Below the pieces are notes generated by a model. That model saw only the letters and a program-made list of their open reading frames with translations. It searched no databases and was not told the DNA's origin. From Bdellovibrio bacteriovorus (GTDB lineage: Bacteria; Bdellovibrionota; Bdellovibrionia; Bdellovibrionales; Bdellovibrionaceae), in the NCBI RefSeq assembly GCF_002208115.1, contig NZ_CP020946.1, positions 1,302,001 through 1,366,000 of the forward strand: a stretch of DNA of 64,000 nt. The letters run 5' to 3'. The position numbers were made by a program, and so were the translations under genes. Below, piece after piece: positions 4,419-25,188 of the stretch. Positions within the stretch are counted from its first letter, which is position 1. Every line of letters begins with the position of its first letter.

Positions 4419-4514
4419 GCTGAAATATGTAACAAAGGTTCGTAAATAGCGAGATACTCCAAGGATTTTGCGAATGTAATTCAGAGTCAGATTATAAATG
4501 CCGATATATTACGT

Positions 4515-7500
4515 ATGAAAAACTACGGAACGTTAACGGCACTTTTCTTTGTTAGCCTCTTAACAACGGTGGCTCATGCCAGTCCGGCGGCGCTGACTTA
4601 TCAGGGACGCATCGTTAAAAGCAGTGGGGCACCGCTGGAATACAATGCGGTCGCCTTCCAGTTTGAAATTCTGGCGCCGAATAAAGTCTGCGTTCTTTAC
4701 CGCGAGCAACTTAATCACATCGACATGACGAATTCAGGCGGGGTCTTCGACGTTAAGATCGGGGCTTCGCACAGTTATCCGGCAGCGCCGACATTCACAA
4801 TTCTGGATGCTTTTAACAACGGCAATCCTTTCACGTGTGACGGCGGTTCTCCTTACAACCCGGGACTGACTGATGGGCGTTTCCTGCGTGTGAAATTCCA
4901 CGATGGGGCTCAGTGGCAGACGATTTCTCCGGACAATGAAATCCGCACGGTTCCTTTTGCAGGTTTTGCTTCTTCCGCTGCGACTTTGGGTTCGCATGTG
5001 GCAACTGACTTTGTGATGAAAACGGAAGTTAACGCTGGTGCTGATTGCGGTGCCGGCAGCTTCCTGACTTGGAATGCGGCGACCAAAGAATTTGGTTGTG
5101 CGGGTGTGTCTGGTGCCAGCGGCGGAACGGTTCAGTCCGTGGGGGCATCTGCTGGCAGCAATCCTTATCTGACAGTTTCAGCAGATACGGTGAATCCGGT
5201 GATCACGTTGAACGTGGGCACTGTGGCTGGCACCGTGGCGGCGGGTAATGATGCGCGCTTTAGTGATGCGCGTACTCCGACGGGTGCTGCGGGGGGTGCT
5301 TTGACGGGCACTTATCCTAATCCGGGTCTTGCTGACAATGCGGTGACGACTCCTAAAATTGCCGCAGGCGCGGTTTCCACCGAAAAGCTTTTTGCCAATC
5401 CGGGCATCAGCCGTCTGGTGATGACGGATTCTTCGACGGGCGCGACGCTGGCTCCGCTGTCTTGTGGTGCCAATCAGTTGCTGACCTGGTCTGTGGCTTT
5501 GGGCTGGCAGTGCACAAATCAAACTTCGCTGGCTGTGGGATCGGCAACTCAAGCGACGAACTTCCTGGGAAGTCTTGCCGGGGATGTGACGGGCACTCAG
5601 GGTGCGACGGTGGTTGGTCAGATTAAAGGTTACCCTCTGGATTTCACGGTAGCTCCAACCAACAATCAGGTTCTGAAATTCAACGGCACCAGTTGGTATG
5701 CGGCCGCAGACAGCAATGCCGGCGGTACGGTCACGAATGTGACAGGCACTGCGCCGATTTCTGTGGCGACAGGCACGACGACCCCGGTGATCTCGATTTC
5801 TCAAGCGAACACAACGACAAACGGTTACTTGTCTTCAGCGGACTGGAACACCTTTAATGGAAAACAAAATGCGCTGGGCTTCACACCGCTGAATCCAGCA
5901 AATAATTTGAGCGAGCTGACGGCAACAGCTACGACAGCCCGTACCAATCTGGGTTTGGGAACTGCGGCCGTGAAAGATGCTCCGGCGGCCGGGGACGCGA
6001 CAGCGGCTCAAGTGGTGCTGGGGAATGATTCGCGCCTGACGAACTCTCGTGCTCCATCGGGTGCAGCGGGCGGAGATCTGACCGGCACTTATCCGAATCC
6101 GACGCTGGCGAATGTGGTGACGGCTGGTACCGGAACGAAAATCACTTATGATGCTAAAGGGCGCGTGACCTCATCCGCTGGCCTTGCGGCGGGCGACATC
6201 CCGAATCTGGATTGGTCTAAGATCACCTCCGGCAAGCCGACAACATTGTCAGGTTATGGCATCACCGATTCATTGGTTTCAAATGCCGGTGGTTCACCAA
6301 GCATTCAGTCCGGTACCGATGCTGCAAAACCTGCCAGTCCGGCGGCTGGCGCGATTTATTTCGCTTCTGATACGAAAGTAATTTATCAGTATAATGCCGG
6401 TTCTTGGGTGGCGATTGCTTCTTCCGCAGGTGCGGGTGGTACCATCACGGCCCTTACAGGTGATGTGACGGCTTCTGGTAATGGCACAGTCAGCGCGACA
6501 GTAAACTCTGTTGGCGGCTCTTCAGCGGCAAATATCAATACCGCAACTGTGGCGGCCAATGCTGCGACAAACTTGAATACTGCAAGTACGATTGTTAAAC
6601 GCGATGGGTCCGGTAATTTTGCAGCCGGAGCGATCAGCGCGGGCTCTGTGGTTCTGCGTGACACGGGCTCCAACACGGTGACTTTGCAGGCTCCAAACAC
6701 TGTGACGACTTCTTATGTGTTGAGATTCCCGGCGGCGGTGGGCTCAGCCAACCAGGTATTGACGACGGATGCTTCGGGAAATCTTTCCTGGACGACTCCG
6801 GCCGTGACTTCAGGTGTGGCGGTGACTTCTCCGATTGTGAACTCGGGCACGGCGGCGGCTCCGAATATCGGTATTCAACAGGCCAACGGTTCTCAAGCCG
6901 GTTATCTGTCGGCGGCAGACTGGACAGCATTTAATTCAAAACAATCCACTTCTTTGGCTCCGGCCAATATTCTTGTGGGTAACGGTTCCAGTGTGGCGAC
7001 GGCGGTGGCTCCATCGGGCGATGTGAGTATGACGAACGCGGGTGCCTTTACCGTGACCAAGGTTCAAAGCACGGCGGTTAGCAGCACGGCGCCAACGGCG
7101 GCGGGTCAGGTTCTTCGTTATAACGGGACAACTCAATATGCACCGGCCTTCTTGCAACTGGGTGATTTGCGCTCGACGATCACTCCGTTTGGTGGGGTGT
7201 TTGCAAGCACGGCTTGTACGACTTCTCAGACTATGTATTACAATGCAGCGACCGACACGTTCCTGTGTCAGTCGATTTCGGTGACGGCGGCTAACTTTGC
7301 CAATCAGGCGCAGAACTCATTCTTCGCGGGTCCTTCTACAGGTGGTGCAGGGGCGCCAGCATTCCGCGCCATTGCGGCTGCGGATCTTCCGACTGTGGGT
7401 ACAGCAGGAACCTATCGTTCTGTGACGACAGACGCCTATGGCCGTGTGACCGCAGGAACAAATCCAACGACGGCCAGCGGGTATGGTTTGACGGATGTCT

Positions 7501-8510
7501 TTGTCAATGGCGGCAACAGCTTCGGTGCTGCGGCGATAGTGGGAACAAACGATGCTCAGAGTCTGCAGTTTGAAACCGCCGGTACAGTGAAAATGACGGT
7601 GGACATTGCAGGCAATGTGGGTGTCGGAACCGCTTCGCCAATTACTCCACTGCATGTCAATGGTGCGGCCATCATCGGAACCGGAAATACGACTTTCACC
7701 AATGCCTCCAACTGGGTGTTTGGCTCTTCCAATTCGATCACGAACTCGGGTGGGGGTAATGCTTCTTCGATGAATATTGTGGGCTCTAGCAATGCTATCA
7801 TCACAAATTTACTGAACTTCAGCTACAGTCTGGATGTGTTTGGTCGCAGCAATACCGTGAATGCCAACTCGGGGAATTCCGTGGTGATCGGGCGCAGCAA
7901 TAATGTGACTTCATCCAACTCGGTGACTATCGGTAACAGTATAACCAACAGCGTGCTTGGTTCTTTGCAAATGGGTATCAGTAACACCGCGAAGATGACC
8001 ATTCTTAGCTCGGGTTACTTCGGTATCAATACGACGACACCAAGTGTGGCCCTGGAAGTAAACGGCGACGTGAAAGCTGCTTCCTATCTTTACACTTCCG
8101 ATGCGCGCCTGAAAAAAGACGTTGTGACTTTGCCGATGGCACTGGAAAACGTGCTGAAACTTCGTGGGGTGAATTTCGTCTGGAAGAACAACGGCGAAAA
8201 GACCATGGGTTTCATCGCGCAGGAAGTGGAAGCAGTTTATCCTGAACTGGTTCGCACCGACAAACAGTCCGGATATAAAGCCGTTCAATACGGAAATATC
8301 GTGGCAGTTCTGGTAGAAGCCCTGAAACAGGAACACGCAGAACGTCTGCAGGACAAAGAGCTTTGCCAAGGGCAGATTGCCCAGGTGTCCCGCGGTCTGG
8401 CCAGCGTGAATGAATCTTCCGACAGCCGTTTGAAAAAACTGGAACAGGAAAATCAGGATCTGAAAGCACGTCTGGAGCGTCTGGAAAAAGCTTTGTTGAA
8501 CGGAAAATAA
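4515..8510 (+). CDS. Giant surface fibre with C-terminal S74 chaperone (fibre A)
   Basis: Secreted fibre protein of 1331 residues that probably trimerises and acts as a cell-surface adhesin. A signal peptide (residues 1-22, ending AHA) is followed by a conserved base domain of about 200 residues starting LTYQGRIVKSSGAPLEY. Then come many phage-tail-fibre-like repeats (GTYPNP, YLSSADWNTFN, AGTYRSVTTDAYGRV), a YadA-head-like stretch near 1060-1150 (SNSVTIGNS and similar), and a C-terminal S74 intramolecular chaperone with Ser1195-Asp and Lys five residues later (SDARLKK). By analogy with phage endosialidase tailspikes, this Ser/Lys site cleaves the chaperone off after folding. A coiled coil ends the protein. 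This mosaic matches the mosaic adhesive trimer proteins described in Bdellovibrio. No good Shine-Dalgarno precedes the ATG. Two GGGW proteins follow directly. Prey target unknown. Confidence 0.88.
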   Translation: MKNYGTLTALFFVSLLTTVAHASPAALTYQGRIVKSSGAPLEYNAVAFQFEILAPNKVCVLYREQLNHIDMTNSGGVFDVKIGASHSYPAAPTFTILDAFNNGNPFTCDGGSPYNPGLTDGRFLRVKFHDGAQWQTISPDNEIRTVPFAGFASSAATLGSHVATDFVMKTEVNAGADCGAGSFLTWNAATKEFGCAGVSGASGGTVQSVGASAGSNPYLTVSADTVNPVITLNVGTVAGTVAAGNDARFSDARTPTGAAGGALTGTYPNPGLADNAVTTPKIAAGAVSTEKLFANPGISRLVMTDSSTGATLAPLSCGANQLLTWSVALGWQCTNQTSLAVGSATQATNFLGSLAGDVTGTQGATVVGQIKGYPLDFTVAPTNNQVLKFNGTSWYAAADSNAGGTVTNVTGTAPISVATGTTTPVISISQANTTTNGYLSSADWNTFNGKQNALGFTPLNPANNLSELTATATTARTNLGLGTAAVKDAPAAGDATAAQVVLGNDSRLTNSRAPSGAAGGDLTGTYPNPTLANVVTAGTGTKITYDAKGRVTSSAGLAAGDIPNLDWSKITSGKPTTLSGYGITDSLVSNAGGSPSIQSGTDAAKPASPAAGAIYFASDTKVIYQYNAGSWVAIASSAGAGGTITALTGDVTASGNGTVSATVNSVGGSSAANINTATVAANAATNLNTASTIVKRDGSGNFAAGAISAGSVVLRDTGSNTVTLQAPNTVTTSYVLRFPAAVGSANQVLTTDASGNLSWTTPAVTSGVAVTSPIVNSGTAAAPNIGIQQANGSQAGYLSAADWTAFNSKQSTSLAPANILVGNGSSVATAVAPSGDVSMTNAGAFTVTKVQSTAVSSTAPTAAGQVLRYNGTTQYAPAFLQLGDLRSTITPFGGVFASTACTTSQTMYYNAATDTFLCQSISVTAANFANQAQNSFFAGPSTGGAGAPAFRAIAAADLPTVGTAGTYRSVTTDAYGRVTAGTNPTTASGYGLTDVFVNGGNSFGAAAIVGTNDAQSLQFETAGTVKMTVDIAGNVGVGTASPITPLHVNGAAIIGTGNTTFTNASNWVFGSSNSITNSGGGNASSMNIVGSSNAIITNLLNFSYSLDVFGRSNTVNANSGNSVVIGRSNNVTSSNSVTIGNSITNSVLGSLQMGISNTAKMTILSSGYFGINTTTPSVALEVNGDVKAASYLYTSDARLKKDVVTLPMALENVLKLRGVNFVWKNNGEKTMGFIAQEVEAVYPELVRTDKQSGYKAVQYGNIVAVLVEALKQEHAERLQDKELCQGQIAQVSRGLASVNESSDSRLKKLEQENQDLKARLERLEKALLNGK

Positions 8511-8514
8511 GACT

Positions 8515-9942
8515 GTGAAGATCATCGGAAAGATCGCCTTCATTCTAGCCGTGTCACCTTTGCTGGTGGCACTGAACACCCAGGACACAGGTCACAGGGT
8601 GAATCGTGGCACCACCAAAGCCATCCATGCCCATAACGTCTGCAAGAAAGTGGTCAATGCCACGGCCGACAAAGATTTCTTTGTTCCGACCAAAACGGCG
8701 GCAGAGTGGACGGCGTTTCGGGCCGCTACGATCACCAGTGTCTCTTTGACCAAGTGTGGTTCCTGTCTGGATATTTTGAACAACAACGGTTCTGAAGGGG
8801 ATGGGATCTATTACATCGATCCCACGGGCAGTTCTCCGTATCCCGTTTACTGTGACATGACCACCGATGGTGGGGGATGGACCCGGATTTTCAAACACAA
8901 TATCTCCGGCGGGTATTTTACTGATGCGACGGATGCCAGCAGTAAAAACACGACCACTCCGACAGCGGATCTGTATTCCATTCTTAATAAAATCGATCAC
9001 TTTAAAACTCCCGGCAACAAGTATCAGTTCCGACTGACCTGGCCTGGAGAAAACTTAAAAAACATCTGGTTTCAAACCACTAACCCCACGGCCGACGTGA
9101 ATGTGGCCGGCTATAAGACTGTCTTTGTTCAGGGTTATACCAACTATTGGGGTGGACTTGAATTGGGGAACGGCGCTCATGGCCCTGCGCAAACATCGTC
9201 GTATCTGGAAGGTTCAGTGAATCACGTGAACTGGTTTTATTCCGTTGGTGCCTATGTGGTTTGGGGCACAACTCCACCGGGGATTCCGGCTTCTGATGTG
9301 CTTGGTGCAAGCCATGGGGTGCAGGAAGTGAATCTGTGGATGAAAGAAGATGACACTCACACGGTCTATAATTCCTGTAAAGCGATCCTGGATGCCGGGG
9401 CCTCCAAAGGTGACGGAATCTATACGATCGATATTGACGGAGCCGGAGCCACAGCGCCTTATGAGGTCTTCTGCGACATGACCACCTCCGGCGGGGGCTG
9501 GACACTGGTGGCATACTCCAACGGCACGGTCACGGGCACAACACCGAATGATTTCTTTGTGAATACCTACAATCTGGCGGCGGCGGGTAAACACATAATG
9601 CCGACGCAGCAGGCTTCCGTGAATCCTGAAGCGTTTTCCATTGCAGTGAACACGACGGATGCCATGTTTGTTTCCCCGTCTTACAACAGTGGAGCTCCAA
9701 TCATTGATCTGGCTGGCGGCAACTGGAACTATAACAATACCAAGTGTACCGGGAATTTGCGCCACACCAGCCGAACTGCCGGGTGCGCCGGGCAAAATGC
9801 CAATGACAATTACAATTCTTCCGATGCGTTTAACATAGCATTTAATTCCGGGAATGAGGGGATCGTGCCGACGTACAAAGCGACGGAGGTCTGCTACAGT
9901 GGCAAAGGAAACGCCTGTAACTTTAAATTCTATCTTCGCTAA
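8515..9942 (+). CDS. Secreted fibrinogen-like YCDxxxxGGGW protein, first copy
   Basis: Exported protein of 475 residues with an N-terminal signal peptide (about 1-20) and two fibrinogen-like segments, each opening with SC..IL and reaching a CDMTT.GGGW core (near residues 112 and 319). This is the bacterial GGGW fibrinogen-like family. Related eukaryotic folds (ficolins, tachylectins) bind acetylated sugars, so glycan binding on prey or on the fibre is a reasonable inference, not something the sequence proves. Between the signal peptide and the first segment it shares the VPTKT..EWTAF motif with the next gene. It starts with GTG four bases after the fibre stop codon, which suggests translational coupling with the fibre. 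The C-terminal part is Asn- and Gly-rich with several cysteines. Confidence 0.82.
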   Translation: MKIIGKIAFILAVSPLLVALNTQDTGHRVNRGTTKAIHAHNVCKKVVNATADKDFFVPTKTAAEWTAFRAATITSVSLTKCGSCLDILNNNGSEGDGIYYIDPTGSSPYPVYCDMTTDGGGWTRIFKHNISGGYFTDATDASSKNTTTPTADLYSILNKIDHFKTPGNKYQFRLTWPGENLKNIWFQTTNPTADVNVAGYKTVFVQGYTNYWGGLELGNGAHGPAQTSSYLEGSVNHVNWFYSVGAYVVWGTTPPGIPASDVLGASHGVQEVNLWMKEDDTHTVYNSCKAILDAGASKGDGIYTIDIDGAGATAPYEVFCDMTTSGGGWTLVAYSNGTVTGTTPNDFFVNTYNLAAAGKHIMPTQQASVNPEAFSIAVNTTDAMFVSPSYNSGAPIIDLAGGNWNYNNTKCTGNLRHTSRTAGCAGQNANDNYNSSDAFNIAFNSGNEGIVPTYKATEVCYSGKGNACNFKFYLR

Positions 9943-9960
9943 GACGGGACGTGAACGAAT

Positions 9961-11427
9961 ATGAAACTGCGAATTGCATTGATGATTATGATGGCGCCAT
10001 TTGTTTTGGGGATCAACACCCTGAGCGAAGGCTATCGTATTCCGGTGGGCGGTTCCACACGTGTGTACGTCCCTTACGTAAGCTCTCAAGGGTCCTGCTA
10101 TATTGTGACCAACAATCACGCCAGCAGTGATCTGTTCGTGCCTACCAAAACTTCGACCGAATGGACTGCGTTTATCGGTGCATCGAAGCCGGCATTCATT
10201 GTGGCGACTCAGTGCTATCCGAAATCCTGTAAAGAGATCAAAGATCTGATGGGAAGCCCGACCGATGGCACCTATACGATTGATTCGGATGGGACCGGAG
10301 CGAATGCGCAGTATTCCGCGTATTGTGACATGACGACCGACGGCGGCGGCTGGACACGCATCTTCCGTCACAACACGGCGGGCGGCTATTTTGCGAGCAC
10401 GGCCGATGCGCAGTCTAAAAACACCGGTGCTCCGACGGGGAATCTGTATTCGCAACTGACCAAAATTCCAGACTTTGCAACTAACGGCAAGTATCGCTTC
10501 CGTCAGACGTGGCCCGGGTATTCCAATAAAAATATCTGGCTTCAGAGCACAAACCCGCTTAGTGACGTGGTTGTGAGCGGGTGGACGCCCATCATGGCAA
10601 CAGCGATCACCGATAAATGGGGCGGTCTGGAACTGGGGAACGGAACCCACGGCCCTATCAACAACAATCAGGCTTTGCTGGATGGTTCAGTGCAGATTTC
10701 CGACTGGTGGTATGCGATCGGATCGACGGTGGCTTATGGAACACCTGCGGGAATTCCCGCCGCCAGTTCCATGATCGGAACCGGGGCCGGCGTGGCGGAG
10801 GTGAATCTGTGGATCAAAGAGGACGACACATACACCACCTACAACTCCTGTAAAGCGATCCTGGATGCGGGAGCGTCCATTGGCTCGGGACTTTATACGA
10901 TCAATCCCGGTGGTGGCGGCGCGATTCCGGTTTACTGTGACATGACCACCGATGGTGGCGGCTGGACTCGAATTCTGAACCACAATTATTCCGACGGAGT
11001 GTTTGCCAACGTCGCAGAGACGTTAAGCTACAACTCGGGGGCGCCGCTTGCGGGCCGCTACTCGATCATGGGCCGAGTGGCTGGATTCTATCGCTCTGGC
11101 AAGCTGGAGTTGAAAATCAACTGGCCGGGCTCGGGCAGTGCCATCCGCAACTGGTGGACTCAGACCAGCAACTTCACTTCACAACCGGTGGCCGGATATG
11201 TGGCGGTGGCGATTGAATCCACCTCGAACTATTGGGGTGGTCTTGAATACAATGGTGCCAGCAACACAGCTTTGGCCGACGGTTCGGCCAATCACTCGAA
11301 CTGGTTTTATGCGGTGGGGATGATGGCTCCGGCGGGGTATGGGACTCCAGTGGGGATTCCGGCTTGTGATACGGTTACGGGGGCGGGGACGATTGGTGTT
11401 CCGCGTGTGGAACTCTGGGTGAAATAA
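9961..11427 (+). CDS. Secreted fibrinogen-like YCDxxxxGGGW protein, second copy
   Basis: Paralogue of the preceding gene, 488 residues, signal peptide about 1-18. It has two GGGW cores (YCDMTTDGGGW near 121 and again near 325), each followed by a 100-130-residue region ending in EVNLWIKEDD or VELWVK. Tandem position, shared N-terminal motif (VPTKTSTEWTAF) and repeated internal segments suggest duplication of an ancestral two-unit gene. It starts 18 bases after the previous stop and ends just before a strong terminator, so fibre A and the two GGGW genes look like one transcription unit. It probably acts outside the cell or on the surface. The ligand is unknown. Confidence 0.82.
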   Translation: MKLRIALMIMMAPFVLGINTLSEGYRIPVGGSTRVYVPYVSSQGSCYIVTNNHASSDLFVPTKTSTEWTAFIGASKPAFIVATQCYPKSCKEIKDLMGSPTDGTYTIDSDGTGANAQYSAYCDMTTDGGGWTRIFRHNTAGGYFASTADAQSKNTGAPTGNLYSQLTKIPDFATNGKYRFRQTWPGYSNKNIWLQSTNPLSDVVVSGWTPIMATAITDKWGGLELGNGTHGPINNNQALLDGSVQISDWWYAIGSTVAYGTPAGIPAASSMIGTGAGVAEVNLWIKEDDTYTTYNSCKAILDAGASIGSGLYTINPGGGGAIPVYCDMTTDGGGWTRILNHNYSDGVFANVAETLSYNSGAPLAGRYSIMGRVAGFYRSGKLELKINWPGSGSAIRNWWTQTSNFTSQPVAGYVAVAIESTSNYWGGLEYNGASNTALADGSANHSNWFYAVGMMAPAGYGTPVGIPACDTVTGAGTIGVPRVELWVK

Positions 11428-11452: not shown

Positions 11453-11476
11453 AAAGGGAACCCGGAGGTTCCCTTT
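11453..11476. terminator. Bidirectional terminator between convergent units
   Basis: Perfect ten-base arms AAAGGGAACC and GGTTCCCTTT with loop CGGA. A-rich sequence on the left provides the T-run for the minus-strand gene. It serves both the fibre cassette and the small gene opposite. Confidence 0.82.
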
Positions 11477-11501: not shown

Positions 11502-11723
11502 CTAGTGACCAGCAGGAGCTGTAGTAGCAGGAGCAGCTGGAGCTGCAGCCGCTGCAGGAGCAGCTTCTTTAGCGTGTTTTTTCTTAGCAGCTTTTTTCTC
11601 AGCTTTAACTTCAGCAGCAGGAGCAGCTGGAGCAGTAGTTGTAGTAGCAGCTGGAGCAGTTTCGTTAGCGTGAGCAACAACACCTGCGAAAGCGATAGTC
11701 ATCAAGATAGAAGCGAATTTCAT
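11502..11723 (-). CDS. Small exported Ala/Lys-rich protein, Asr-like (acid-shock type)
   Basis: A 73-residue precursor with a clear signal peptide (about 1-19, ending AHA). The mature part is almost only Ala, Pro, Thr, Lys and His, with EKKAAKKKHAKEAA in its centre. The composition and the AAKKKHAK motif resemble the periplasmic acid-shock protein Asr of enterobacteria, which helps cells survive acid; this is similarity by eye in low-complexity sequence. A very strong ribosome-binding site (TAGGAGGT) precedes the ATG, suggesting high expression. It lies directly downstream of a two-component system. In E. coli, RstAB and PhoBR have been linked to asr control, which makes the neighbourhood notable. 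Confidence 0.7.
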   Translation of the reverse strand: MKFASILMTIAFAGVVAHANETAPAATTTTAPAAPAAEVKAEKKAAKKKHAKEAAPAAAAAPAAPATTAPAGH

Positions 11724-21120: not shown

Positions 21121-21339
21121 GTGCTTCCGAATATTTTTTTCGCCCAGGAATCAACCCGAAAAATATAGCAATGAGTAGCTAGGTCCCTAAGTAAGGGAGT
21201 GCGTGTATTTGAGTAAGGATCGCTTTTTCGCACGAGCGGCAATTAACCAGCGGATAGGATTTCAGAAAATTGAATGTGACATTGATTTCATGTTTTGACC
21301 CTTTTGGCATGTGATGAGGCTGCCGAAAGAGTTAGCACT
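21121..21339. other. Intergenic region between divergent pseudoazurin and fibre B
   Basis: The gap between the two start codons is 304 bases (21036-21339). Apart from the FNR-like palindrome I see no ORF, strong hairpin or RNA. It must hold both divergent promoters, but I cannot pick convincing -35/-10 pairs. Confidence 0.5.
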
Positions 21340-24300
21340 ATGGTGCGACACTTCGGAACGTTCATGATTTTGTGTCTCTTTTTTGGACCGTTGACGTTGT
21401 CTGCGGCTCCGCAATTTCTGACTTATCAGGGGCGGGTGCTTAAGAACAACGGTTATCCTCTTGAATATGAAAATGTCAGTTTTAGTTTTGAAATCACAAA
21501 TCCGGACGGGCTTTGTGTGATTTACCGTGAGCAGGTTAATGGCATCAACATGGTGAACTCCGGAGGAGTTTTCGATGTCGCGATTGGTTCAGGGGCCCGG
21601 CAGTATCCGGCGGATGCGGGATTTAATTTGCTCGATACCTTTAATAATGCGACTCCTTTTGTTTGTGATGGCGGCAGCCTTTATTCGCCAGCCTTCAATG
21701 ACGGGCGTCGTTTGCGGGTGAAATTTCACGATGGAACTGGATGGAAGACAATCACGCCTGATTCCGTGATTCGCACAGTTCCTTATGCCGCTTATGCGTC
21801 TTCCGCAGCGAAGCTGGGGGCCTATTCAGCTTCTGATTTTTTATTGAAGAATGTTTTGCCTGTGTGTGGTTCTGGATCTTTCCTTTCCTGGAACGGAAGT
21901 GATCTTGTGTGTGAAGGTGTCAGTGGTGCCAGTGGCGGTACTGTGACCCAAGTGTCTTCCGCCAACTCTTATTTGACGGTGGCCAATGGAACTTCAACAC
22001 CACTTTTGACGTTGAAGGTGGGGACGGTCAGTGGGACCGTTGCGGCCGGTGATGATGCAAGGCTCACGGATGCGCGCACTCCGAAAGGGGCGGCTGGAGG
22101 AGATCTTTCAGGCACCTATCCGGCGCCTTCCGTGGTGGCCTTGCAGGGAGTTGCGGTGTCGAACTCGGCACCGGCTTCTGGAAATTACCTCAAGTACAAT
22201 GGTGCTCAGTGGGCACCGGCTGGAATCAATACCAGTGATGTTAATGGGCTGTCTGCGGCACTGAGCACATATCTGACTCAGTCCGCATTTAATGCGGCGG
22301 TCAGTTCTGCCAGTTGTGGTGCGAATCAGGCGGCTTATTGGAATTCTGTATCCTCTAATTTTCAATGTCAGACAATCAACGTGGGTGTGACCACAGTGTC
22401 GGGAACCGCGGGGCAAATTGTGGTTAGTAACGGCAGCACAACGCCAACATTGTCTTTGACCAGTGTCGGTACCAGCGGAACTTATTTTAAAGTGACGACG
22501 GATGCACAGGGGCGCGTGACTGCGGGGCAAAGTTCACTGGTCAGTGCTGACATTCCGGCACTGAGTTGGACGAAGATCGCTTCGGATCTTCCCACCACAT
22601 TGGCGGGCTATGGTATCACCAATGCAGTGACCAATGTCGCAGGAACGCCCAGTCTGCAAACAGGTTTGGATGCAAGTAAACCCGCGGTTGGTACTGCCGG
22701 TCGTTTGTACGTGGCCAGTGATACCAAACGAATCTATCGCGACACGGGAAGTGTGTGGGATCTTATAGCCTCTGCGGCGGGCGCCGGTGGCACTGTCACC
22801 AGCGTGGCCACAGGCACGGGTTTAACTGGTGGACCGATTTCCACGACAGGAACCATCTCGTTGGCGAACACCGCAGTGACGGCGGGCTCGTATGGTTCTG
22901 CAACGCAGGTGCCGACATATACGGTGGATGCTCAAGGCCGATTGACGGCGGCTTCCAACGTCACGATTTCCGGAGTGAGCCCTGGTGGGGTCGCAGGTGG
23001 AGATCTGACTGGTACCTACCCGAATCCAGTTCTGACTGCGACGGGGGTTGCGGCCGGGACCTATCCGAAAGTCACCGTTGATGCCAAGGGACGGGTGACG
23101 GCTGGCGCGGCCCTTGCGGCTGCGGATATTCCTGCACTGGATGCTTCAAAAATTACGACCGGCACCTTTGCCGCCGCAAGAATGCCGGCGTTCACGGGAG
23201 ATGCAACTTCCGTGGCGGGAGCCACGGCGTTGACACTGGCGGCTTCGGGTGTTTCGGCAGGGACTTATAAATCTGTCACTGTGGATACCAAAGGGCGCGT
23301 GATCGCGGGGACGAATCCGACAACTTTGAGTGGTTATGGCATTACTGATGCTGTGACCAATGTCGCCGGAACTCCCAGTGTGCAAACAGGTTTGGATGCA
23401 AGTAAACCCGCGGTTGGTACTGCCGGACGCTTGTACGTGGCCAGTGATACGAAACGAATCTATCGCGACACGGGAAGCGTGTGGGATCTTATTGCCTCTG
23501 CAACTGGTTCTGGCGGCACGGTCACCAGCGTGGCCACAGGCACAGGTTTAACTGGTGGACCGATTTCCACGACGGGAACCATCTCATTGGCGAACACCGC
23601 GGTGACCGCGGGAGCCTATGGTTCCACGACGCAAGTGCCGACATTCACTGTGGATGCTCAAGGCCGATTGACGGCGGCTTCCAACGTCACGATTTCCGGA
23701 GTGAGCCCGGGTGGAGCCGCGGGTGGAGATTTGACTGGCGCCTACCCGAATCCAGCTCTGACTGCGACGGGGGTTGCGGCCGGGACCTATCCGAAAGTCA
23801 CCGTTGATTCCAAGGGACGGGTGACGGCTGGAGCTACGCTTGCGGCTGCGGATATTCCTGCACTGGATGCTTCAAAAATTACGACAGGAACCTTCACGGC
23901 AGCAAGGATGCCGGCATTTACCGGGGACGCAACATCAGTGGCAGGGGCCACCGCATTGACACTGGCCGCCTCGGGAGTGACGGCTGGGACCTATCCGAAA
24001 GTGACGGTGGATACCAAAGGCCGTGTGACGGCCGGCGCGGCCCTTGTGGCTGCGGATATTCCAGCACTGGACACCTCCAAATTGACGACGGGAACTTTAC
24101 CGATTGCACGGGGCGGAACCGGTTCGACAACTGGATCAATTACTGGTTCTGGAGCACTGACTTTTGCTGCAGGAGGGACGAATCAGAACATCGTATTAAC
24201 CCCCAGTGGTACTGGCAGAACGGTGTTGAATGGAAATGTAGGCATAGGAACCACAACACCCGCTGCAGATTTGGAAATCAAAAGAGCATTTGGAGCGGGG

Positions 24301-25188
24301 GGGCATATTCGAATCGGGGATGGCTATGATGCCAATTCTTTTGCATCCCTTGGGTATTCAGCCTACGGGGCCAACCTGATTATTTCGTCAGGGTCTTATT
24401 GGAACGGAAGTGATTGGCAGGCCACCCACACTTCAGCTTCGCATGTCTCTGTTGGGCCTGACGGGGTGATGTTTAAAAATACCAAGGGTCTTACAATTGG
24501 TGGCTCTGATCCCCTTAAAAACATGGTGCTGATTGGGGGCACGCAGAATCGATTGGAAATTTATCCACAAGCAGCGACAGTCGAAGGTGGGGAAATCTAT
24601 CTGCAAGCTGCGGGAAATGCCGGGGCGACGGCAGATGTGTCATTGGATAACTATAACAACAGATTCCGTGTGATTGTCGGCGGGGCTGAACAAATGGTTG
24701 TGGCAAGTTCGGGAAATGTCGGTGTGGGGCAGACAAGTCCATCCTATAAGATGCATGTTAATGGGACTGTTGCCGGCACCGCGGCTTATGTGAATACTTC
24801 CGATGAAAGACTTAAGAAGAATATTTCTGTGATACCTGGAGCTTTGGAAAAAATCCTTCGTCTGAATGGTGTGTACTTTGACTGGCGCCAGGATGAATAC
24901 CCTGAATGGAATTTTGAACAGCGACACGATGTGGGGGTCCTTGCTCAGGAAGTGGAAAAAGTTTTTCCTGAAGCGGTTCGCACTGACGAAAAAGGTTATA
25001 AAGCTGTGGCTTACAGCAAGCTGGTGCCGCCCTTGATTGAAGCAACCAAAGAAATCAACGGAAAGTGCGAGATGAACGTGGCGCAGATCCGCGATTTGCA
25101 GGATAAAGTAACTGTCCTTCAAAAAGAAAATGAAGAATTAAAAAAGCGCTTAAGCGCCATTGAAGAAAAACTCAACGGGGCCCTCTGA
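21340..25188 (+). CDS. Giant surface fibre with C-terminal S74 chaperone (fibre B)
   Basis: Second fibre, 1282 residues from the ATG at 21340. This start gives a clean signal peptide ([18 protein letters not shown], ending SAA); the longer in-frame TTG at 21295 spoils it. The base domain of about 200 residues closely parallels fibre A ([41 protein letters not shown]). The shaft is made of phage-fibre-like repeats ([45 protein letters not shown]), including a 242-residue tandem duplication. A distinct distal domain lies near 960-1140. The S74 chaperone has Ser1154 and Lys five residues on (SDERLKKN), then a coiled coil. Predicted to be an autoprocessed trimeric adhesin at the cell surface. Its terminator overlaps the stop codon. 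Confidence 0.88.
22593..24044 (+). repeat. Two tandem 726-bp units inside fibre B
   Basis: Unit 1 is about 22593-23318 and unit 2 about 23319-24044; period 726 bp, 242 codons, in frame. Long stretches are nearly identical at the DNA level, for example around 22660-22780 against 23386-23506. A smaller motif ([17 protein letters not shown] followed by AADIPALD) recurs three times within and after the units. Confidence 0.9.

Follow-up and report, generated by a model that had tools for sequence, protein, structure and literature searches.

A MAT-family fibre gene and two genes for secreted fibrinogen-related proteins in Bdellovibrio bacteriovorus: a probable two-part predator adhesin

The surface fibres of B. 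bacteriovorus which make up the mosaic adhesive trimer (MAT) superfamily number 21 in HD100, with 13 of these ending in S74; a trimeric fibre on the predator surface was demonstrated for MAT homologues and self-cleavage of the S74 chaperone for Bd3182, and in the main text of that study the tips belong to the same polypeptide as the rest of the fibre (Caulton et al. 2024, PMC10769870). MAT fibres with their built-in tips have been proposed as the answer to how predators recognise many different prey. The main text of the MAT paper does not mention fibrinogen, GGGW or an operon, and neither MAT nor fibrinogen appears in the main text of a later paper on the predation proteome.

Trimeric fibres with a separately encoded receptor-binding head are known from T2-type phages (Salmonella phage S16, PP01), in which gp38 touches gp37 by its N-terminus and specificity is exchanged in chimeras (PMC12892980). 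With regard to the proteins encoded next to the fibre described here, two further comparisons apply: the fibrinogen-related domain (FReD) lectins, i.e. ficolins, tachylectin 5A (TL5A), FIBCD1 and intelectins, and the NCBIfam family GGGWT_bact (NF040941), which carries the YCDxxxxGGGW domain also present in our proteins. This family name conveys no function, and an adjoining S74 fibre, as in ours, is lacking in most of the further bacterial members examined (Myxococcota, Bacteroidota and others).

The fibre gene and its transcription unit

The window, i.e. the whole 64-kb stretch of DNA analysed, contains three open reading frames in tandem on the plus strand, encoding the fibre (4515-8510), GGGW protein A (head A, 8515-9942) and GGGW protein B (head B, 9961-11427), which are separated by gaps of 4 nt and 18 nt, as in the preliminary description of this DNA. 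That description had treated the 1331-aa fibre as one of phage type; it is not an orphan of that type, but matches NCBIfam Bdello_MAT_N (NF053851, 4.2e-64) over residues 12-170 and is, judged by its sequence, a member of the published MAT superfamily, consisting of a signal peptide, this conserved N-terminal domain, a repetitive stalk, a tip, an S74 chaperone and a coiled coil. Residues 1195-1247 match Pfam Peptidase_S74 (PF13884, 1.9e-15), and the SDxxxK motif of the S74 subgroup is present as SDARLK at residue 1195. By homology to Bd3182, cleavage is predicted before Ser1195, which would release the S74 intramolecular chaperone and C-terminal coiled coil (8097-8507, plus strand) and leave TTTPSVALEVNGDVKAASYLYT (residues 1173-1194, 8031-8096, plus strand) as the C-terminal end of the mature fibre, the proposed socket for the heads; the fibre itself is presumably a trimer. 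Unlike in the MAT fibres as described in the main text of PMC10769870, the presumed binding domains are here separate proteins.

The 3.77-Mb genome contains 18 MAT_N and 13 S74 matches, with GGGWT confined to the genes of heads A and B. The window has one further S74 MAT fibre (21295-25188), for which there is no head gene, the next gene being convergent. Two other MAT genes of this genome (G000) are broken at the same codon (..VLKYDGTK, then stop; L090 at about 2140-2330, L091 at about 4767), one via an out-of-frame tandem duplication and the other apparently via a deletion, and this may represent either recombination-driven switching or an assembly error.

Upstream of the fibre gene is a FliA (sigma28)-type promoter, TTCAG-N16-CCGATA (4480-4506, plus strand), whose GCCGATAT element begins 15 nt ahead of the start codon of the fibre gene. 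It is the sole match in the 64-kb window with at most one mismatch to TTAAG-N16-CCGATA, the attack-phase FliA consensus (PMC3627812). Most MAT genes of this genome (L087-L103) have a GCCGATAA-like FliA -10 element at -14/-15, against a background of 9.6% of random 200-bp stretches matching 7 of 8 or better, and this distance of 14-15 nt to the start codons implies leaderless attack-phase mRNAs; the fibre mRNA is probably leaderless as well. Rather than separate FliA-type promoters, the unit has one at the fibre only, and the absence of a GCCGATAA element from the operonic heads is in favour of, though no proof for, their being transcribed together with the fibre from its promoter. Three heads unlinked to a fibre have a FliA-type element of their own, including the 3-domain heads of genomes G021 and G023 (the start of the L084 head was set at internal Met 34 for the promoter position), while head B of G010 and the heads of G004 have none. 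A scan for sigma70 promoters gave no excess over chance.

The single terminator with which the unit had been proposed to end is only partly borne out: there is a terminator-like hairpin at 11453-11476, but since its long T run is on the minus strand it best suits the convergent gene at 11502-11723 (minus strand), which encodes a 73-aa secreted, Ala/Lys-rich protein. On the plus strand the hairpin is weaker, and it is perhaps bidirectional. An open frame of 478 aa on the opposite strand of both heads (9214-10650, minus strand) is probably a codon-usage artefact.

Head proteins with a shared N-terminal domain

Heads A (475 aa, GTG start) and B (488 aa) are paralogues with 42% identity, both with a signal peptide and two GGGWT_bact domains (whole-protein E-values of 2e-39 and 5e-35, respectively). 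In all 39 heads aligned, the signal peptide is directly followed by a domain of ~60 aa, regardless of the number of GGGW domains, for which we coin the name head docking domain (HDD), with the consensus NTxxTGFxVxxGxxxxIxAHGxCKKVxNxxAxxxxFVPTKTxxEWTxF...C. It covers residues 19-84 of head A (8569-8766, plus strand) according to both this alignment and profile searches, and 10009-10227 (plus strand) in head B. Behind the HDD, heads carry one to five fibrinogen-fold (GGGW) domains, in head A at 8749-9333 (NF040941, PF00147 and domain profile) and 9361-9939 (NF040941; with a divergent second half and an extra Cys), and in head B at 10210-10806 and 10834-11412 (the latter by domain profile), all on the plus strand.

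An AlphaFold2 model of residues 17-290 of head B, based on a 51-sequence domain alignment, had a pLDDT of 90.1 and a pTM of 0.87, with the HDD folding as a small domain; a model of the whole of head A from 17 close sequences had a pLDDT of 40 and was set aside. Foldseek and VIA searches, which spanned mainly residues 67-274 of the head B model, matched its residues from about 69 to 274 to the FReD fold (ficolin, 7.5e-8), with VIA Z-scores of 14-15 over about 190 residues at 3.2-3.5 A for ficolin, TL5A, FIBCD1, angiopoietin and tenascin. The head domains are thus predicted to have the FReD fold, and their profile also matches tenascin, FIBCD1 and intelectins over the N-terminal part of the domain. 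They differ from the FReD lectins in that the ligand half has diverged, and in being repeated in tandem behind the HDD, a bacterial domain.

In ficolins, a second pair of cysteines in the C-terminal half, beside the Ca/acetyl pocket, forms part of, or borders, the acetyl-binding site. The cysteines in domain 1 of head B number just two, those of the first pair, and beyond this pair the 51-sequence domain profile contains no further invariant Cys. Binding of acetylated sugars, as initially proposed for these proteins, can therefore not be assumed from the fold, and this reading was rejected as unsupported. A further statement, that a pairing with fibrinogen domains is not normal for fibres of phage type, proved too strong, since viral models and phage records include fibrinogen-related domains in phage fibre-related proteins such as gp35 of Vibrio phage KVP40 and proteins of cyanophages.

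Conservation of the pairing and of the fibre tip

GGGWT was found in 21 of the 66 genomes of the family, and the flanking DNA of these loci was annotated by local profiles. A MAT-S74 fibre followed by a GGGW head is present in nine Bdellovibrio genomes with gaps of -38 to +4 nt, with head A and then head B following in G000, G003 and G008, an A-type head in G005, G007, G010 and G011, and a B-type head in G014 and G025. The order in G004 is single-domain head, 93-aa gene, fibre. Outside of this family, 13 Bacteriovoracaceae-type genomes, which belong to another family of the phylum, have 17 loci with GGGW proteins of four to five domains, and at all 17 an S74 fibre immediately precedes the GGGW gene, with gaps of -17 to +11 nt. 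Most of these fibres share the tip; their N-termini resemble MAT_N weakly or give no match to it. The linkage is conserved in a genome survey of the kind proposed at the outset, with multi-domain GGGW heads mostly adjoining fibres, and the pairing occurs in two orders of predatory bacteria; it is new relative to the main text of the MAT paper, and is not a matter of chance.

Immediately ahead of the S74 Ser, the linked fibres have in common the mature C-terminus ...APSEALEVNGNVKAxxYLYT, which is absent from other MATs. Over tip and S74 they are 47-85% identical, versus no more than about 45%, and this over shorter stretches, with other MATs. When this region was compared with 24 genomes, there were 12 strong matches (E <= 1e-44) before a sharp drop, of which ten are the linked fibres and two are from G021 and G023, where a tip-type fibre stands alone at its locus and 3-domain heads are found at distant loci. 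A tip-type fibre is present in 12/13 Bdellovibrio genomes with HDD+GGGW heads versus 0/11 without, for which the Fisher p-value of 1e-5 is not to be taken literally, as the genomes are related and p-values overstate their independence; its absences are scattered over an rpoB tree (which leaves out G011, having no rpoB match).

More generally, S74 fibres preceding an HDD gene end in [YF]x[YH][TSA], followed by SD with the cleavage Ser. Among all loci examined, Tyr or His is found at -2 of the cleavage Ser in 35/37 S74 proteins directly before an HDD gene, versus 4/35 of those not before one (p=1.5e-13, again with related genomes). In the four exceptions an HDD is found elsewhere in the genome (L190, L191), upstream (L194) or convergent next door (L325), and in the two cases without Tyr/His, heads with divergent HDDs (L254, L255) are paired with divergent tips (YLTTSD).

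Proposed docking of heads on the fibre tip

We consider it probable that the unit encodes a two-part predator adhesin, in which the S74-trimmed MAT fibre carries heads docked on its tip via the HDD. A MAT fibre trimer would be made on the cell surface, where the S74 chaperone would cut itself off and leave the strand ...EVNGDVKAASYLYT as the new tip; heads A and B, secreted and co-expressed from the attack-phase FliA-type promoter of the fibre, would then dock onto this exposed tip by their N-terminal HDD, with either head perhaps occupying it at a time, and would present their lectin-like fibrinogen-fold domains to prey surface glycans, for which they presumably have binding and sugar specificity. 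A composite of stalk and heads in one transcription unit, which the preliminary description had also suggested, is strongly supported by the conserved adjacency, co-occurrence, fused versions, shared N-terminal domain of the heads and matching fibre tip, which like the gene order, S74 motif and head architecture are read directly from the genomes.

Heads are also found apart from fibres, being unlinked in G010, G004, G021 and G023, and in G009, where both heads are intact, all that is left of the fibre is a 234-aa ORF with the fibre coiled coil at its end. Since these heads outlive their fibre, they may either do something independent of it or be in the course of being lost. Together with the heads having their own signal peptides, this could be cited for soluble or independently anchored lectins, made beside the fibre from the same attack-phase unit and without contact to its tip. 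Such lectins would leave unexplained the particular cleavage-site tip of fibres preceding an HDD, the MAT fibres of G019 and G020 with a C-terminally fused GGGW domain and no S74, and the same HDD before unrelated head domains, and we regard this as unlikely. At the G009 locus (L075, 7806-8510), an unrelated protein of cytoplasmic appearance carries the fibre coiled coil as a fusion, 4 nt upstream of the head genes.

Profile searches detected the HDD also in other secreted proteins, with glycine-rich, TSP1, TIG or LamG domains, and we count this variation of heads behind a constant HDD in favour of docking. Two HDD proteins, in G023 and G025, come directly after other S74 MAT fibres (tip YTSD) and are rich in glycine in their C-terminal parts (with Pfam Gly_rich_2 marginally below cut-off), and one in G024, TSP1-like by eye, comes after a pilin-like protein ending in S74. 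No HDD match was found in phages, and only one each in plasmids (E=1) and among PDB sequences (E 1.1); a single-protein genome scan gave no result. The variability of the heads bears on whether the proteins encoded downstream could, without binding prey, act as assembly chaperones of the fibre tip or as its caps, for which their position directly downstream of the fibre, the conserved pairing with one tip type and the precedent of T4 gp38 for gp37 could be cited; however, the fibre already has its own S74 chaperone, and the wide range of heads, both in size and in the kind of domain they carry (1-5 FReDs, glycine-rich, LamG, TSP1), is typical of binding modules, making this explanation improbable.

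Docked heads would have their nearest functional parallel in gp37-gp38 of the T2-type phages, where a separately encoded head likewise goes with a trimeric fibre. In the predators the head gene adjoins the fibre gene and the head has a conserved N-terminal domain, by which it would be attached, and some HDD heads elsewhere even contain glycine-rich domains. We do not claim membership of that family: no sequence relation was found, the HDD having no match in phages, heads A and B are of the fibrinogen fold and not polyglycine, and the Bdellovibrio fibre differs from gp37 in its S74 chaperone. The adhesin proposed here would be a cellular parallel to the detachable tip adhesins of these phages, and would add a second, combinatorial layer to prey recognition.

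Of the non-GGGW HDD genes, 11/43 are directly downstream of an S74 protein and the remaining 32 have no S74 gene directly upstream (some being at contig ends). These many secreted HDD proteins without a neighbouring S74 gene would fit an HDD serving as secretion or surface-retention signal of predator adhesins, with fibre adjacency reflecting clustered attack-phase adhesin genes, but this is highly improbable given that S74 adjacency in the non-GGGW set is far above chance (about 1e-17, assuming 15 S74 genes per 3500) and that the tip signature tracks HDD presence; the HDD could also serve attachment to another partner. Whether docking extends beyond the fibre-head pairs is finely balanced in our view: the HDD and the [YF]xY[TS] tip before the SD would then form a general plug and socket across the Bdellovibrionota, with S74-processed fibres and S74-tipped type IV pilin-like proteins taking interchangeable secreted heads (fibrinogen-fold, glycine-rich, TSP1, LamG). 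If so, prey range could be changed by swapping heads on an unchanged fibre. A detachable-head system, with its short docking domain and socket, would predict binding functions for many uncharacterised secreted proteins of predatory bacteria.

Several proteins adjoining HDD genes (L196/L284, L340, L341 and L344) combine a type IV pilin-like N-terminus with a C-terminal S74 chaperone, and are possible S74-processed pilus tips. At two other loci (L195, L204), the gene for an S74 fibre with a FISTSD tip overlaps that for a downstream secreted protein without HDD, which is perhaps a second form of fibre-head pairing.
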